From Shinella sp. CPCC 101442 (lineage in GTDB: Bacteria > Pseudomonadota > Alphaproteobacteria > Rhizobiales > Rhizobiaceae): a DNA stretch of 64,000 bases. The notes beneath the pieces were generated by a model. That model worked only from the letters and a program-made list of their open reading frames with translations, was not told the origin of the DNA and did no database searches. Within the stretch, counting starts at the first letter, position 1. Every line of letters starts with the position of its first letter. Below are positions 23,975 through 31,393 of this stretch, in pieces. The position numbers were made by a program, and so were the translations under genes. The stretch is from NCBI RefSeq assembly GCF_024704725.1, contig NZ_JALIQS010000004.1:372001-436000 (forward strand), in the 5' to 3' direction.

Positions 23975-24781
23975 TCAGGCGATTTCCGATTCCCGTCTGG
24001 CGATCTCGTAGTCCTCGTGGTGAACCTGCAGGCCTTCCTCCGTCACCACGACGATGCCGTAGGCGGCAGGTTCGTCCACCGAGAGCGAGGCATTCGGCGC
24101 GTCGAACGGCATCGGCTGCTGGTGAACCGGGCTCTTGAAGATGGAGAAGGGGATACCGCGATGCGAGCCGCCGATCGTGCGGTGTACATGGCCTGCGAAG
24201 ATGTGGCGGACATTGCCGTGCTTCAGCACCAGATCGTAGAAGGCGTCCTCATTGGAAAGCCGGATCGTGTCCATGCCGGTAAAACCCGTCTTGTGCGGCG
24301 GGTGATGCATGAAGAGGAGGACGGGCAGGCCGTTGGCCCCGGCAAGCGTCCCGTCGAGCCAGGCGAGGCGCGTCTCGCAGAGATAGCCGGCATGGCTCAG
24401 CGGATAGTCGTAAGGCGGGGCAAAGAGCGTATCGAGCAACACGACCCGGCAATCGGGAAAATCGATCACCTGCTGTACGAAGCCGTTCTCGTCCGGCTGG
24501 ACATGGGAAAAGGTTTCGAGGAAGCGGTCGCGATAATCGTGATTGCCGATGGTGATGGCGGCCGGCGGCACGAGTTTGGCGAGAAGATTGCGCAGTCGCT
24601 CGTAGGACATCGTGTCGGCGCGGTGTGTCAGGTCGCCGGTGAAGATGACGCGGTCCGCATCCGCATGGTGGCGGTTGACGTGCTCGATGCCGGCAAGCAG
24701 CCGCTGATAGGGATCGAGGCCGATGATCTTCGTGCCTTCGGGCACCATGTGCAGGTCGGTAAAGACAATGAATTTGGTCAT
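23975..24781 (-). CDS. Calcineurin-like metallophosphoesterase (CpdA/GpdQ type)
   Basis: The product has 268 residues. All dinuclear metal ligands are readable: D8 and H10 (FTDLHM), D50 (TGDLTH), N98 and H99 (IGNHDY), H158 (LFMHHPP), and H197 with H199 (AGHVH). This pattern covers cyclic-nucleotide phosphodiesterases (CpdA) and glycerophosphodiesterases (GpdQ). The nearby adenylate-cyclase module at 27.9-30.5 kb makes cAMP breakdown an attractive idea, but the genes are not in one operon. Confidence 0.88.
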   Translation of the reverse strand: MTKFIVFTDLHMVPEGTKIIGLDPYQRLLAGIEHVNRHHADADRVIFTGDLTHRADTMSYERLRNLLAKLVPPAAITIGNHDYRDRFLETFSHVQPDENGFVQQVIDFPDCRVVLLDTLFAPPYDYPLSHAGYLCETRLAWLDGTLAGANGLPVLLFMHHPPHKTGFTGMDTIRLSNEDAFYDLVLKHGNVRHIFAGHVHRTIGGSHRGIPFSIFKSPVHQQPMPFDAPNASLSVDEPAAYGIVVVTEEGLQVHHEDYEIARRESEIA

Positions 24782-26026: not shown

Positions 26027-27052
26027 TTACTTGGCGGCGTAATGCTTCTCGATGGCGCCAAGGGCGATCGGGTCGATCTCCGCCGTGTCGGCGTCCTCGA
26101 TCAGATCCCGGTCGGCAAGCACCTGCTTGATGGCGCGGCGCGCATCGGCCGAGAGCTGTTCCGGCTGGTCGCGCAGGATGACTTCGAGATCGACGTCGCG
26201 CATCTCGAAGGCGGCGACGAGGCTGGTCACGGCCTGCTCGATGTTCTTGACGATGCCGGTGCCACTCTGCTGCATCAGGCCGATCTTCAGCTTGCCGAAA
26301 CTGTCACCCTTGTTGGCCGCCTGCTCGAAATAGCCGGCAGCGGCGGTGACATCCTGGGTGACACCTTCGCCCGATTCCAGCATGAGGCCGAGATTGATCA
26401 TGGCATCGATGCTGCCGCGCTCGGCTGCAAGTTTGTAATAGGCGGCAGCACGCGCATTGTCTTCGGCGACGAGACTGCCGTCGTCGAGCAGTACGCCGAG
26501 ATTGAAGGCTGCGGTCTCGTCGCCGCTGGCGGCCGCCTTGTCGAACCAGCGGGCGGCTTCCGCGCCGTTCACCTCGGTGCCGATGCCATCGCGGTAAGCG
26601 ACGGCGAGATTGTAGGCGCCGAGCATGTCGCCCCGTTCGGCGGCCATCCTGTAGTGGCTGAACTCGGCGGCCGGGTCGCCGCGTTTTCCGAGCATCGCGC
26701 CATAGTTCACCATGGCGACCGTATGGCCGAGCGCTGCGGCCTCGGCATAGAGCTTCATCGCATCGAGATCCTGGCCGGCGCGTTCCAGGGCGCGTGCCAG
26801 CTGGAAGGCCATGCGCGGGCTGCGGGCCGCATTATAGGCTTCGCGACAGGCCGACAGCGCCGTGCCGATCTTGATGTCCTCGAGTGCCACCGGCGCGAAG
26901 GCCGTGTTGCGCGCCGTGTCGTAGCGGCTGCCGGCGGCGGCATCGCACTGGGCTTCGATTGTGTTGGCGCTGGCGCCATCGGCACCCGCCAGAAGGACCG
27001 CGAAGAAAAGGGCGCGGCCAGCCGTCTTCAGCATGTTGGATCGCATGTTCAT
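26027..27052 (-). CDS. Secreted Sel1-repeat (TPR-like) protein
   Basis: The product has 341 residues with a signal peptide (LFFAVLLAGADGASA, about 1-29). At least four Sel1-like repeats cover about 90-260, with the alternating pattern A-x-x-x-G-x-x-x-A-x-x-N-L-G (GAYNLAVAYRDGIGTE, AAFNLGVLLDDGSLV, AMINLGLMLESGEGV). Such solenoids are scaffolds for protein contacts in the periplasm. It is divergent from the FecR gene and next to the cyclase cluster, so it may belong to that signalling group. The C-terminal 80 residues have no recognised domain. Confidence 0.85.
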   Translation of the reverse strand: MNMRSNMLKTAGRALFFAVLLAGADGASANTIEAQCDAAAGSRYDTARNTAFAPVALEDIKIGTALSACREAYNAARSPRMAFQLARALERAGQDLDAMKLYAEAAALGHTVAMVNYGAMLGKRGDPAAEFSHYRMAAERGDMLGAYNLAVAYRDGIGTEVNGAEAARWFDKAAASGDETAAFNLGVLLDDGSLVAEDNARAAAYYKLAAERGSIDAMINLGLMLESGEGVTQDVTAAAGYFEQAANKGDSFGKLKIGLMQQSGTGIVKNIEQAVTSLVAAFEMRDVDLEVILRDQPEQLSADARRAIKQVLADRDLIEDADTAEIDPIALGAIEKHYAAK

Positions 27053-27240
27053 GATCGGTCTCCCTTCGTTGATGGGGGCACCTTAGATGATCGGTGAAAA
27101 ACGGCTGTTTCCGCGGGAACAGAGGGATGGCGGGACGCGGCGCATAAGGGTAGTCATTGCTGGCGGTGTGCACGGTGGATGTGGCGCGGCGCCCTGGTTC
27201 AATCCATCCCGGCGGGCTTGTGCCCCGCGAAAGGTGTGTC

Positions 27241-27882
27241 ATGCGAACGCTCGATGCTCTCCGTCCGGTCCTCCTCAGTCGCAGGCTCCTCATCGCCGGC
27301 GGCGCGCTTGCGCTGACAGGCATCGGCCTTCGCGCCACGCAGGCCAATTCCATCATCGGCAAGGCCGTGGAGATCACCGGCGATGTCAGCCGCAAGCAGG
27401 CGAACCTTCTTGAGGGCCTGAAGGCCGGCGCGAGCCTGATGGACCATGATTTCGTGAAGACGGGCAAGGAAAGCTTCGCCGAACTCGCGCTGGGCGACGA
27501 TACCAGCCTGCTTCTCGGCAGCGAGACGGAGCTTTTGATCGATACCTTTATCGCGGGGCAGGGCGGCACGATCGAGCTCGGCACCGGCCAGATGGTCTTC
27601 GACCGGCCGGAGGGACTTGCGAAGATCGACCTCACCATGCGCACGGCCTTCGGCATGATCGGGGTGCGCGGCACGAAATTCTTCGCCGGCCCGAGCCGGA
27701 AGGCTCCCTTCGCCGTCTTCGTCGAGCACGGCCGCGTCGAGGTCACCGGCGGTGGCGTGACCAGGTCGGTTTCCGGCGGCGAGGGCGTGGAGATCAACGC
27801 ACCGGGCGCGGCACCCGGCGAAGTCGTCAAATGGGGCGAGGCCCGTATCCGCGAGGCCTATGCCAGCGTCGGCATCCGGTAG
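27241..27882 (+). CDS. FecR-domain periplasmic protein
   Basis: The product has 213 residues from the ATG at 27241. The N-terminus SRRLLIAGGALALTG resembles a Tat signal. A FecR domain follows, with the family features VKTGKESFAELALGDDTSLLLG, then MRTAFGMIGVRGTKFF and the late VFVEHGRVEV. Unlike classical FecR it has no cytoplasmic anti-sigma part, so it is a periplasmic FecR. It ends two bases from the stop of the convergent CHASE2-cyclase gene, a pairing that suggests a common envelope-sensing role. Confidence 0.88.
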   Translation: MRTLDALRPVLLSRRLLIAGGALALTGIGLRATQANSIIGKAVEITGDVSRKQANLLEGLKAGASLMDHDFVKTGKESFAELALGDDTSLLLGSETELLIDTFIAGQGGTIELGTGQMVFDRPEGLAKIDLTMRTAFGMIGVRGTKFFAGPSRKAPFAVFVEHGRVEVTGGGVTRSVSGGEGVEINAPGAAPGEVVKWGEARIREAYASVGIR

Positions 27883-27884
27883 GG

Positions 27885-29729
27885 TCAATCCAGCGTAAAC
27901 AGGTCCATCGTTCCAAACCCGCGGATTTCGTGGTTGCCGATGGCGCGGAGCGTTCGGCTGGTTTCGCTGGCCGCATGCGGGCCGATGCAGATCTGGGTGC
28001 CCAGAAACTTGTTGGCATCCTGCAGGCGGGCGGCGAGGTTCACGGCGTCGCCGTGGGCGGTATAGTCGAGCTTCCCGCCGGTACCGACTTCCCCCAGCAC
28101 CGCCATGCCCGTCTCGACACCGATGCGCGTGCGGCCGAATTCCTTTTCGAGGAATGCGGGGCGGCGGCGCATCTCTTCGGTCAGCGAGCGGATCTCGTCG
28201 GCGCAGGTCAGTGCCTTGTCGACATGGCGGTCGAGATCGTCGGGGGCGTTGAAGAGCGCGTGCACGGCATCGCCCACCACCTTGTCCACCATGCCGCCAT
28301 GGCGCGCGACCAGCGCGTTCACCTCGGAAAAGTAGATGTCGAGCAGCTTGACGAGATCGTGCGGTCCGATCTTCTGGGCGAGCGTCGAAAAACCCTCGAT
28401 ATCGGTGAAGAGCGCCGTCACCTGCCGTTCCTCACCGGCCACGCGGGCCATGTCGGGATTGTCGATGTAACGGGAGACGACCGATTGCGGTAGGTATTGC
28501 CCAAAGCGCTGGCGCGCCGTCGCCTCCGCGCGGCGGATATGGGTGAATTGCATAAGGCCGGTAGCGAGTGCGGCTGTGGCGACGACCAGCGAGACACCGA
28601 TCGCATCGGACAGCAGTGCCGTGCGCAGGTAGAGCAGGCCGGAGACGCCGAAGACGAGCCCGACGAGTGCTACGCCTGCAACCGCGGCAAAGAGCGGGCG
28701 CAGCCGTGTCGCCGCCAGCGCTGCCGCCGCACCCATGAGGAAGGCGAAGCCCGCCTCGGCCGGCAGGAGGCCTGGATCGCGCATCGGGATATGGTCGGTC
28801 AATATGGCATTGGCGACGTCGGCATGGATTTGCACGGAGGGTTCGAGCGGCATGGAGGCGCTGGCGCGCAGCCCGCCGAGATTCGGCAGGCTGCTGCCGA
28901 TCAGCACGACCTTGCCGGCGATTTTTTCCGGCGCGACGTTTCCGGCCACGACATCGGCGGCGGAAAACGTCCGTACGCCGATCGTCGCGGCACGGCTCGC
29001 CACGAAGCGCAGGCTGCCGTCCTCGTCGAGCCGCAGGATGCGCGCATCGTGGCGCAGCCAGACGGGATTGCCGCCGAGAACGGGCGTGCGCGCGCCGGCC
29101 GCAAGCCGCGCGGCTTCGACGCCGAGCGCCGGATAGGCGGCATTGCCGACGATGGCATAGGCCTGCACGCGTCGCACCACTGCATCCTCGTCGCCGACGA
29201 GGAAGGAGGCCGAGGCCGAAACCGCCTTGTCCTGCAGGAAGGCGCAGGAGCTTTCCGTGCCGTCGATGAACCAGAGATCGGGCACCGAGACGGGTTTCTG
29301 CAGGGCGAGCGCCGGCACGGGATGCGGCGCGCCGTCGGAGGCCTCGCCGATGAGGAAACCGAGCACGGTCGGCACCTTGGCGATGGCACCGGCAAGGGCC
29401 GCATTGGCCGGTTCGTCCGCCGCGCAATCGGTGCTGAAGACGAAATCGAAGGCGATGGCCGCTGGTTTGGCGGCGGCGAGGCGGTCGATCAATGCGGCGG
29501 TCTGGACGCGTGTCCAGTCACGGTCCGGCACGCTCTGGAAGGCCTTCCGGTCGATATCGACGACGACGATGTCGTCGCTTTCGGGTGCGGGAATGGTCTG
29601 GGTGAGGGCGTCGAAATAGAATTCGCGCTGGCGTTCCAGCGCCGTCTCGCCCAGGAAAAACAGGGCAAGCGCGCCGGCAAGGCTCGCGGCAAGGCCGGCG
29701 GCAAACGGTCTGTATTTCTTGGCGATCAT
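27885..29729 (-). CDS. CHASE2-domain class III adenylate cyclase
   Basis: The product has 614 residues. An N-terminal helix (about 8-27) leads to a periplasmic CHASE2 sensor domain (about 30-320, with AFDFVFSTDCA and KVVLIGSSLPNLGG), then three transmembrane helices (about 325-400) and a cytoplasmic class III cyclase domain. Catalytic residues look complete: metal Asp in ALFTDIEGFS and in VVGDAVHALF, the adenine-selecting Lys (VDKVVGD) and Asp (HGDAVN), and the transition-state Asn/Arg in NLAAR. ATP to cAMP is therefore expected. It is preceded by a Crp/Fnr gene on the same strand, 33 bases away. Confidence 0.92.
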   Translation of the reverse strand: MIAKKYRPFAAGLAASLAGALALFFLGETALERQREFYFDALTQTIPAPESDDIVVVDIDRKAFQSVPDRDWTRVQTAALIDRLAAAKPAAIAFDFVFSTDCAADEPANAALAGAIAKVPTVLGFLIGEASDGAPHPVPALALQKPVSVPDLWFIDGTESSCAFLQDKAVSASASFLVGDEDAVVRRVQAYAIVGNAAYPALGVEAARLAAGARTPVLGGNPVWLRHDARILRLDEDGSLRFVASRAATIGVRTFSAADVVAGNVAPEKIAGKVVLIGSSLPNLGGLRASASMPLEPSVQIHADVANAILTDHIPMRDPGLLPAEAGFAFLMGAAAALAATRLRPLFAAVAGVALVGLVFGVSGLLYLRTALLSDAIGVSLVVATAALATGLMQFTHIRRAEATARQRFGQYLPQSVVSRYIDNPDMARVAGEERQVTALFTDIEGFSTLAQKIGPHDLVKLLDIYFSEVNALVARHGGMVDKVVGDAVHALFNAPDDLDRHVDKALTCADEIRSLTEEMRRRPAFLEKEFGRTRIGVETGMAVLGEVGTGGKLDYTAHGDAVNLAARLQDANKFLGTQICIGPHAASETSRTLRAIGNHEIRGFGTMDLFTLD

Positions 29730-29762
29730 GATCGGCTGCTCCCGTTCCGGGCCGCCGGCTGG

Positions 29763-30467
29763 TTAGTCGTCATCCGGCTCGGCGATGTTTTGCAGCCGGC
29801 CGATATGGCAATGGATGATGCCGTCGTTGCGGCGGATGGCGCCGCCTTCTTCGAGCGCCAGGATCGACCGGTTGATCTTCGGCCGGCTCGCACCGACGAT
29901 GCTGGCGATCTCGGTCTGGCTTAGCGACAGCTGGAGGTTCGCGCTCTCGGGCAGCTCGTCTCCATGGATGTTGCGCAGCGTCGCCAGGAAGAAGCGGGCG
30001 ACGCGGGCGTCGAGATCGTAGAGGGCAATCGTTTCGAGCTGCTCGGTCGTCTCGCGCAGCTTGGTGCAGAGATAGTGGATGATCGCATGCGCGGCGGTCG
30101 GATTGCGGGTGAGGACGTCGAGGAAATCGCGCTTGGCGATGACATAGCCCTCGGTCGCCGTTACCGAGGTCGCATCCGCCGAGCGCGGCTGACCGTCGAG
30201 GATCGCCATCTCACCGAGGATGGAACCGGCTTCCAGCTGGCGCAGCGACAGTTCCTTGCCCTGCGGGGTGATCAGCGACAGTTTGATGCGGCCGGTGACG
30301 AGCACGATGAGATAGGTACCCTCGTCGCCGCGCTGGAAGATGACCGTTCCCGCCGGCCATCGGCGCCAGGACGCGATGGAGGCGATCTCGCCGATCGTTT
30401 CCTTGCTGAAGCCCTCGAAAATCGGAAAAGAACGCCAGAACGCGGCACTCTTGTTGATCTCGTTCAT
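29763..30467 (-). CDS. Crp/Fnr-family transcription regulator
   Basis: The product has 234 residues. A cyclic-nucleotide-binding domain (about 15-130) has the phosphate-binding cassette GSILGEMAILDGQPRSADAT, retaining the Glu and the Arg-Ser pair used to bind cAMP in Crp. A helix-turn-helix follows at about 180-210 (LSQTEIASIVGASRPKINRSI). There is no Cys cluster, so it is not an Fnr-type oxygen sensor. It forms an operon with the adjacent adenylate cyclase, which likely makes its ligand. Confidence 0.92.
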   Translation of the reverse strand: MNEINKSAAFWRSFPIFEGFSKETIGEIASIASWRRWPAGTVIFQRGDEGTYLIVLVTGRIKLSLITPQGKELSLRQLEAGSILGEMAILDGQPRSADATSVTATEGYVIAKRDFLDVLTRNPTAAHAIIHYLCTKLRETTEQLETIALYDLDARVARFFLATLRNIHGDELPESANLQLSLSQTEIASIVGASRPKINRSILALEEGGAIRRNDGIIHCHIGRLQNIAEPDDD

Positions 30468-30584: not shown

Positions 30585-30773
30585 CTATTGGCAGATGCGC
30601 ACGCGTTTGGTGACGGTTTTGCCCGTGTGGTCTTCCATGCGCATGCGCTTGGTGATGCAGTTTTGCTGGTAGTGGCCGTAGTAGCCATCGGCATAGGCCG
30701 TGCCGGCATGGCCGGGTGCGGTGAAGGCAAGCGATGCGGCGGCGAGGGCCAAGGCAAGAAGATATTGGCGCAT
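30585..30773 (-). CDS. Small secreted protein
   Basis: The product has 62 residues. A signal peptide (LLALALAAASLAFTAPGHA, about 1-23) is followed by a short, positively charged mature part of about 40 residues with two cysteines (NCITKRMRM and the C-terminal RICQ). Those could form a disulfide. It is upstream of the Crp/Fnr gene on the same strand, about 117 bases away. No family recognised. Confidence 0.7.
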   Translation of the reverse strand: MRQYLLALALAAASLAFTAPGHAGTAYADGYYGHYQQNCITKRMRMEDHTGKTVTKRVRICQ

Positions 30774-30967
30774 GATGTATCCGGAAGAGGGAAGGCGGCG
30801 GGGTGGTGTCTCCTTTTCGCACAGGGCCGAGCCGGTTTCTGTTCCGCCGGGAACAGGAGATCGTTCACAAAATGCGAACGATCTGTCTCCTGACTGCCCG
30901 ACTAGTTTGACGATGGAAAGCTGTTATTTCTCTGCCAACGAAACGCCCCAAGCCTCAGGAGCTTCCC

Positions 30968-31393
30968 ATGCCGCAGAACGCCGTCGTCCTCGTCGGACGC
31001 ATTCTTCTTTCCCTCATGTTCATCACCGCGGGCTTCCCCAAGCTCATCGACCCCTCGGGCACCGCCTGGATGATCTCCAATGCCGGCCTCCCGGCTGCCA
31101 CCGCGCTCGCCTATCTCGCGGGCATTTTCGAACTCGTCGCCGGCCTCTTCATCCTCGTCGGCTTCCAGACGAAGATCACCGCCTGGCTTCTCGCTCTCTT
31201 CTGCGTTTTCACCGCCCTCGTTTTCCATAGCGGCGCGATCAACAACCCGGACTTCCCGGAAGGCGCAAACGGCCTGCTGACCGTCTTCAACGGCCTGATG
31301 ATGTGGAAGAACATCACGATCGCCGGTGGCTTTCTGGTGCTTGCCGCCTTCGGCCCGGGCTCCATCTCGGTCGATGCCCGCCGCGGCGCATAA
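30968..31393 (+). CDS. DoxX-family membrane protein
   Basis: The product has 141 residues and four transmembrane helices. The first contains the family motif [18 protein letters not shown]. The second to fourth cover about 45-125, with the conserved [20 protein letters not shown]. The DoxX family includes quinol oxidase subunits and proteins of unknown role; here the function is unassigned. CAGGAGC precedes the start. It is followed by a terminator, so it is monocistronic. Confidence 0.88.

Follow-up and report, generated by a model that had tools for sequence, protein, structure and literature searches.

The cyaD1 locus of Sinorhizobium meliloti, the root-nodule symbiont of alfalfa, comprises clr, cyaD1, smc02177, smc02178 and spdA. 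The clr gene lies beside the CHASE2 cyclase gene, smc02177 (FecR domain) and smc02178 form a divergent pair with a Clr box between them, and spdA is located nearby (PMC4222275, PMC5498481). Clr binds the smc02178 box in the presence of cyclic AMP (cAMP) and activates both smc02177 and smc02178, and the two genes are required for keeping secondary infection in check (PMC4222275, PMC5498481). The pathway controls the number of infection events on the legume root, with SMc02178 as a key output belonging to no recognised family and with the FecR protein given no assigned role (PMC5498481). SpdA is reported to cleave 2',3'-cyclic nucleotide monophosphates (PMC4222275). A CHASE2 adenylate cyclase cluster of Campylobacterota likewise contains a FecR protein, together with a TPR-class protein and a phosphodiesterase, but no Crp is named in the cluster as described (PMC9239204). 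In Burkholderia, the BiofilmReg operon pairs a FecR-LysM protein with a CHASE2 receptor; however, that receptor is a histidine kinase, and the output runs through it and a response regulator instead of cAMP and Crp (PMC5192318).

The window analysed here is the whole 64-kb stretch G000:C4:372001-436000, situated inside a 6.1-Mb genome of Shinella. It carries counterparts of all five genes, and the locus that they form is orthologous to the S. meliloti one. An earlier note on this DNA had regarded the four-part set of Sel1 protein, FecR protein, CHASE2 cyclase and Crp regulator as less described; given the five-gene match, the set was already known, and it has been studied genetically as the cyaD1 locus (PMC5498481, PMC4222275). 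The Shinella locus is thus a known locus in a new host. Three points are added: the Clr box co-varies with FecR and Sel1, the protein in the SMc02178 position gains a family, and Shinella offers a simpler set of cyclases. Its main features are as follows.

23975-24781, minus strand: spdA orthologue, calcineurin-like phosphoesterase (PF00149; 74% identity over 265 amino acids (aa) to the spdA product of genome G257)
26027-27052, minus strand: predicted secreted protein with Sel1 repeats, a longer homologue of SMc02178 in the corresponding position (PF08238, 86.6 bits)
27106-27121, no strand assigned: Clr box TGTTTCCGCGGGAACA in the promoter region between the divergent Sel1 and FecR genes, an exact match to the published consensus, kept in relatives
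27241-27882, plus strand: FecR-domain protein, SMc02177 orthologue, probably periplasmic (PF04773, 41.3 bits; ATG start taken)
27885-29729, minus strand: CHASE2 class III adenylate cyclase, CyaD1 orthologue (PF05226, 113.5 bits; Guanylate_cyc PF00211, 58.0 bits)
29763-30467, minus strand: clr, cAMP receptor transcription factor (Pfam cNMP_binding and HTH_Crp_2; 69% identity to S. meliloti Clr)

Gene identities at the Shinella locus

The four genes of the earlier note all give Pfam matches above the cut-off, and their coordinates agree with the order and strands proposed there. The FecR and cyclase genes are convergent with two bases between their stop codons, the cyclase gene follows the Crp gene on the same strand after a gap of 33 bp, and the Sel1 gene is divergent from the FecR gene. 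Two features set the Shinella arrangement apart from that of S. meliloti: a proline racemase gene is inserted between spdA and the Sel1 gene, and a second Clr box is situated ahead of clr.

The best match of the window Crp protein in the PDB is 7pza/7pzb (E 1.5e-108), the structures of S. meliloti Clr, in which the cAMP pocket is formed by G85, E86, R95 and S96 (PMC10127613). All four residues, including the Arg95-Ser96 pair that the earlier note had pointed to, are kept in the window protein and in 52/52 aligned Clr proteins. Judged by this match and by the pocket, the window Crp gene is the orthologue of clr, and its product would be expected to bind DNA in a cAMP-dependent manner. Two other genomes of the family, G257 and G341, are assigned to the S. 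meliloti group because their Clr proteins are nearly identical to that of S. meliloti (100% for G257, a rounded value with at least one residue different, and 99% for G341) and because the box between FecR and the adjacent 157-aa protein is exactly TGTTCCGCGGGAAACA, the sequence published for the smc02178 promoter. In G257, clr, the CHASE2 cyclase, FecR, the 157-aa protein and spdA are all present at the locus; in G341, the first four are confirmed.

The window cyclase is 62% identical to the cyclases of G257 and G341, and its closest named relatives are those of Shinella itself (83-93% identity in nine Shinella records). It retains D443, K483, D487, T557, N564 and R568, which are kept in 53, 51, 53, 49, 51 and 53, respectively, of the 53 aligned cyclases. 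We take D443 and D487 to be the metal-binding Asp pair, K483 and T557 the purine-selecting pair, and N564 and R568 the transition-state pair. As far as residues can tell, the enzyme is therefore of the adenylate cyclase type, as the earlier note had supposed, and it probably makes cAMP.

Both a PF00211 search and a protein search find two class III cyclases in the genome that holds the window, and both are CHASE2 receptors. The same search gives two in another Shinella genome (G075) against 20 in G257 and 17 in G341; for S. meliloti, 26 to 28 class III cyclases are reported (PMC4222275, PMC10127613). NodA, the sole nodulation marker used, was not found in the Shinella genome by a search that finds it in the positive controls G257 and G341. 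The second CHASE2 adenylate cyclase is located at L028:8198-10156, next to genes that by eye appear to serve histidine utilisation. A tblastn search of the 17.5 kb around it detects no FecR, Sel1 or Clr homologue, which rules it out as a further FecR-paired copy.

Co-occurrence and Clr boxes across the Rhizobiaceae

The survey covered 394 genomes of the family, with cut-offs of E <= 1e-60 for Clr and the cyclase, E <= 1e-15 for FecR and E <= 1e-30 for Sel1, and supersedes an earlier cyclase survey of 121 genomes (13 positive). Clr, searched with the 7pza sequence, is found in 53 genomes, the cyclase in 54, FecR in 55 and Sel1 in 45. All four genes are present in 32 genomes, in one fixed arrangement, so the co-occurrence that the earlier note had called for is real; in later counts, with Sel1 taken at E <= 1e-12 and the 157-aa protein added as a query, the four-gene loci number 34 instead of 32. 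Clr and the cyclase occur together in 45 genomes and are adjacent, on the same strand and with clr first, in 45/45. The FecR gene is present in 54/54 genomes with the cyclase, within 1.1 kb of it in 47, and the two genes are convergent in all 47 loci holding both, while Sel1 and FecR are divergent in 35/35. The convergent order is conserved but the length of the gap is not: measured between the ends of tblastn matches, it spans 2-141 bp in 43 loci and 245, 447, 555 and 1,076 bp in the other four. The 447-base gap, at about 6574-7020 of L016 (Shinella G075), is wanting in most other Shinella loci, and that of G273 measures 555.

Some genomes hold only part of the set. Eight genomes of genera g20 and g85 hold the cyclase and FecR with no Clr at the threshold, and G106, G236 and G263 hold Clr beside Sel1 with neither cyclase nor FecR, as do G009 and G361 at a lower threshold. 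FecR thus tracks the cyclase across the family, and Sel1 tracks Clr.

The window has two sites that match the published Clr consensus HGTYHCNNNNGRWACA, both at the clr-cyclase locus; they amount to 4 strand-hits against 0.20 expected, a number reached in 0/100 shuffles. The centre of the box TGTTTCCGCGGGAACA is 61.5 bp upstream of the Sel1 start, and the S. meliloti smc02178 box is reported at about 68 bp before the start codon (PMC4222275). In 68 retrieved loci (800,067 bases), the consensus gives 54 sites and the reversed pattern 4. A box within 350 bp upstream of FecR is present in 44/45 genomes with Clr and in 0/10 without it; for Sel1, the corresponding counts are 39/39 and 0/8. Fisher values for this association would overstate the independence of the cases, since the genomes are related; by genus, the FecR box is found in 11/11 Clr-positive genera (four of the five g55 genomes have it) and 0/3 Clr-negative genera, and the Sel1 box in 11/11 and 0/2. 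FecR genes that have been relocated (G014, G163, G278, G319, G333 and G385) retain the box in 6/6 cases, and G100, which has the Sel1-FecR-cyclase arrangement with Clr undetected, has no box. These counts leave out the Sel1 matches of G192 and G296 (E about 1e-32 to 1e-34), as well as the Clr-only genomes G084, G224 and G356 and the second Clr of G278, which have no FecR or Sel1 alongside. The Sel1 match of G236 contains internal stops and was used as found, the FecR gene of G320 is adjoined only by weaker cyclase-like fragments, and FecR and the cyclase of G279 lie near contig ends. Because the presence of the box tracks Clr across the relatives, FecR and Sel1 are very probably conserved outputs of Clr.

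The strict palindrome TGTTYCNNNNGRAACA, the portion of the consensus that reads alike on either strand and was picked after the relaxed list had been seen, occurs at 16 sites in the Shinella genome against 0 for the reversed control, and 14 of these are outside the locus. The open reading frames (ORFs) flanking or covering 15 of the 16 sites were listed mechanically and several are ambiguous; hence no regulon is claimed beyond the examples named below. The number of strict boxes bears on a different reading of the locus, namely that Clr is a global regulator, that clr and the cyclase gene have simply inherited their adjacency, that most cAMP comes from the other CHASE2 cyclase, and that FecR and Sel1 are ordinary members of a regulon. 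The description of S. meliloti Clr as integrating many cyclases (PMC5498481) agrees with it, as do the genomes in which clr and Sel1 persist without cyclase and FecR. However, the invariable adjacency of clr and the cyclase and the detection of only two class III cyclases in Shinella argue against it, and we consider it somewhat unlikely. Meanwhile, a strictly private regulator, with one cyclase and with targets confined to the locus, is rejected by the second class III cyclase and the 14 strict boxes elsewhere. The private Crp of the earlier note does not stand in that sense, but the cAMP wiring of Shinella is far more private than that of S. meliloti, since only two class III cyclases are found against the 20 and 17 of the S. 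meliloti-like genomes.

The two envelope proteins

The FecR protein has 213 aa and a single FecR domain at residues 72-167, with no other Pfam domain and a short N-terminus bearing an RR-containing leader. Its structural model has low confidence at residues 1-83; hence the C-terminal part alone was read, and this matches the cell-surface signalling domain of PupR (6ovk, E 6.4e-6). Such a fold, together with the FecR domain, is what would be expected of an anti-sigma regulator of a TonB/extracytoplasmic function (ECF) cell-surface signalling system unrelated to the cyclase. However, the domain begins near residue 72 after the short leader, so that an anti-sigma domain would hardly fit in front of it, and the N-terminal cytoplasmic anti-sigma domain of classical FecR proteins is not seen in the window protein. 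In addition, FecR accompanies the cyclase without exception and is convergent with it wherever both share a locus, as in the SMc02177 family. An anti-sigma role is thus highly improbable.

The pairing of FecR proteins with CHASE2 receptors, which the earlier note had described as known, is documented for the adenylate cyclase of Campylobacterota (PMC9239204) and the histidine kinase of Burkholderia (PMC5192318). Such pairs in other phyla, together with the resemblance to the PupR signalling domain, would suit FecR and Sel1 as the input of the system, sensing the envelope, gating the CHASE2 cyclase and thereby feeding a private Crp. FecR also follows the cyclase more strictly than Clr does (54/54 against 45/54), the eight g20 and g85 genomes included. 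However, both genes are situated behind Clr boxes and look like outputs, the two proteins are judged dispensable for the perception of the shoot signal in S. meliloti (PMC5498481), and the genome contains 16 strict boxes and a second cyclase. The input role put forward in the earlier note is therefore not upheld, and we regard it as unlikely.

The window Sel1 protein has 341 aa, in contrast to the 157-aa form in the same position in G257 and G341. The G257 protein, on which the family comparison rests instead of the Rm1021 sequence, aligns with residues 31-157 of the window protein (50% identity over 127 aa, E 2e-33 in a two-sequence comparison). By this alignment, the SMc02178-position protein of the S. 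meliloti-like genomes is a short member of the family of the window Sel1 protein. A Pfam search of the G257 protein gives no domain, which fits the published remark that inspection of the SMc02178 sequence yields no structural clues (PMC5498481). The 47 members of the family range from 141 to 347 aa, and C36, D37, D45, R48, C69, A72, L85, R87 and A105 are invariant in 47/47. The occupancy of the alignment drops toward the C-terminus, where the Sel1 repeats are located; as aligned, the constant part of the family is a two-cysteine N-terminal domain (Cys36/Cys69), and the repeats are the variable part. The AlphaFold2 model of the window protein shows stacked helical hairpins, with a mean predicted local distance difference test (pLDDT) score of 74.6, and is closest to solved Sel1-repeat proteins. 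From its hydrophobic N-terminus, read from sequence only, the protein is predicted to be secreted or periplasmic. The comparison puts the SMc02178-position protein into a predicted secreted family in which the other members have Sel1 repeats. The word Sel1 does not occur in the literature examined that names smc02178, and the literature found with both Sel1 and CHASE2 concerns caspase homologues. Seven genomes of genus g48 (L100-L106) keep a gene of this family with no detected Clr, cyclase or FecR, and no Clr box is found in the 8 kb around it in any of the seven.

The proposed circuit and further Clr boxes

Taken as a whole, the locus is best explained, with good though not full confidence, as a Clr-CyaD1 circuit with FecR feedback and a Sel1 effector arm. 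An extracytoplasmic signal would act on the membrane cyclase through its CHASE2 domain, and the enzyme would then produce cAMP; cAMP-bound Clr would bind the palindromic box in the divergent promoter and raise the expression of two envelope proteins, FecR and the long, Sel1-repeat form of SMc02178. In Shinella, clr and the cyclase may in addition be driven from the second Clr box, which is situated upstream of clr and of a small gene ahead of it. Since FecR is found with the cyclase even where Clr is absent, and nearly always has a Clr box where Clr is present, its likeliest part is that of a cAMP-induced partner adjusting the CHASE2 receptor, so that it may feed back on the receptor, while the Sel1/SMc02178 protein would act as the effector arm. 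A more specific version makes the two proteins a periplasmic pair, induced by cAMP, that would reshape either the CHASE2 receptor or the envelope: Clr would raise FecR, FecR would bind and retune CHASE2, and the two-cysteine N-terminal domain, with its variable number of Sel1 repeats, would be a previously unrecognised effector domain that was at first of use to free-living Rhizobiaceae and was later recruited to limit legume root infection. This version is speculative, and we hold it to be quite unlikely as it stands.

Several observations weigh against the circuit. In 6 of the 54 genomes, the FecR gene is no longer next to the cyclase gene, and in one more both are near contig ends. The Sel1 gene is undetected at the locus in Shinella G273, G315 and G352 and in the Shinella records L056 and L058; with five such loci, Sel1 is not essential to the unit. 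Genome G347 (L073) is the only one of the 45 Clr-positive genomes with FecR that has no consensus box, and its Sel1 gene is likewise not detected. Over the whole Shinella genome, the relaxed consensus shows only weak enrichment, with 54 strand-hits where the reversed pattern gives 37. A literature search for Shinella with Clr and adenylate cyclase found no expression or binding data for Shinella. In S. meliloti nodules, the expression of smc02177 is essentially clr-independent, and mutations in smc02177, smc02178 and smb20495 have no significant effect on the response of an smc02177-lacZ fusion to shoot extract; a weak but significant effect was seen for the smc02178 mutation alone, on its own fusion (PMC5498481). 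These mutant results disfavour a general receptor role of smc02177 and smc02178. However, a later paper assigns the nodule and shoot signal, signal 1, to CyaK, whereas CyaD1/D2 are given another signal, 1'; NsrA is needed for both (PMC7529298). Since the shoot signal is assigned to CyaK, the shoot-extract experiment may not have addressed CyaD1, and it was no clear test of FecR at the cyclase next to it.

Both the genes of the S. meliloti locus and its Clr operator occur in the genome of a soil bacterium in which NodA was not detected. With two detected class III cyclases and the long protein form, Shinella looks like a simpler host for questions of CHASE2 sensing and of the FecR protein.

Upstream of clr, the window contains three further features.

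30585-30773, minus strand: 62-aa protein with a secretion-like leader, ahead of clr (ORF); possible Clr target
30840-30855, no strand assigned: second Clr box TGTTCCGCCGGGAACA, between the run of small gene, clr and cyclase and the doxX gene (consensus and strict palindrome)
30968-31393, plus strand: DoxX-family membrane protein (PF07681); possible Clr target across the second box

The centre of the second box is 74.5 bp from the start of the 62-aa ORF and 120.5 bp upstream of the doxX start, and a box 349.5-402.5 bp upstream of clr is found in 10/52 Clr loci. A small protein at L042, just downstream of a box at 1501, resembles the window 62-aa protein (32% over 82 columns, E 2e-12 in a two-sequence comparison) and has a C-terminal motif in common with it; both have a secretion-like leader and are situated downstream of a strict Clr box. 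In addition, the strict boxes at L040 and L120 precede what appear by eye to be an L,D-transpeptidase-like secreted protein and an RTX-like repeat protein, respectively, hinting at an envelope-centred Clr regulon.

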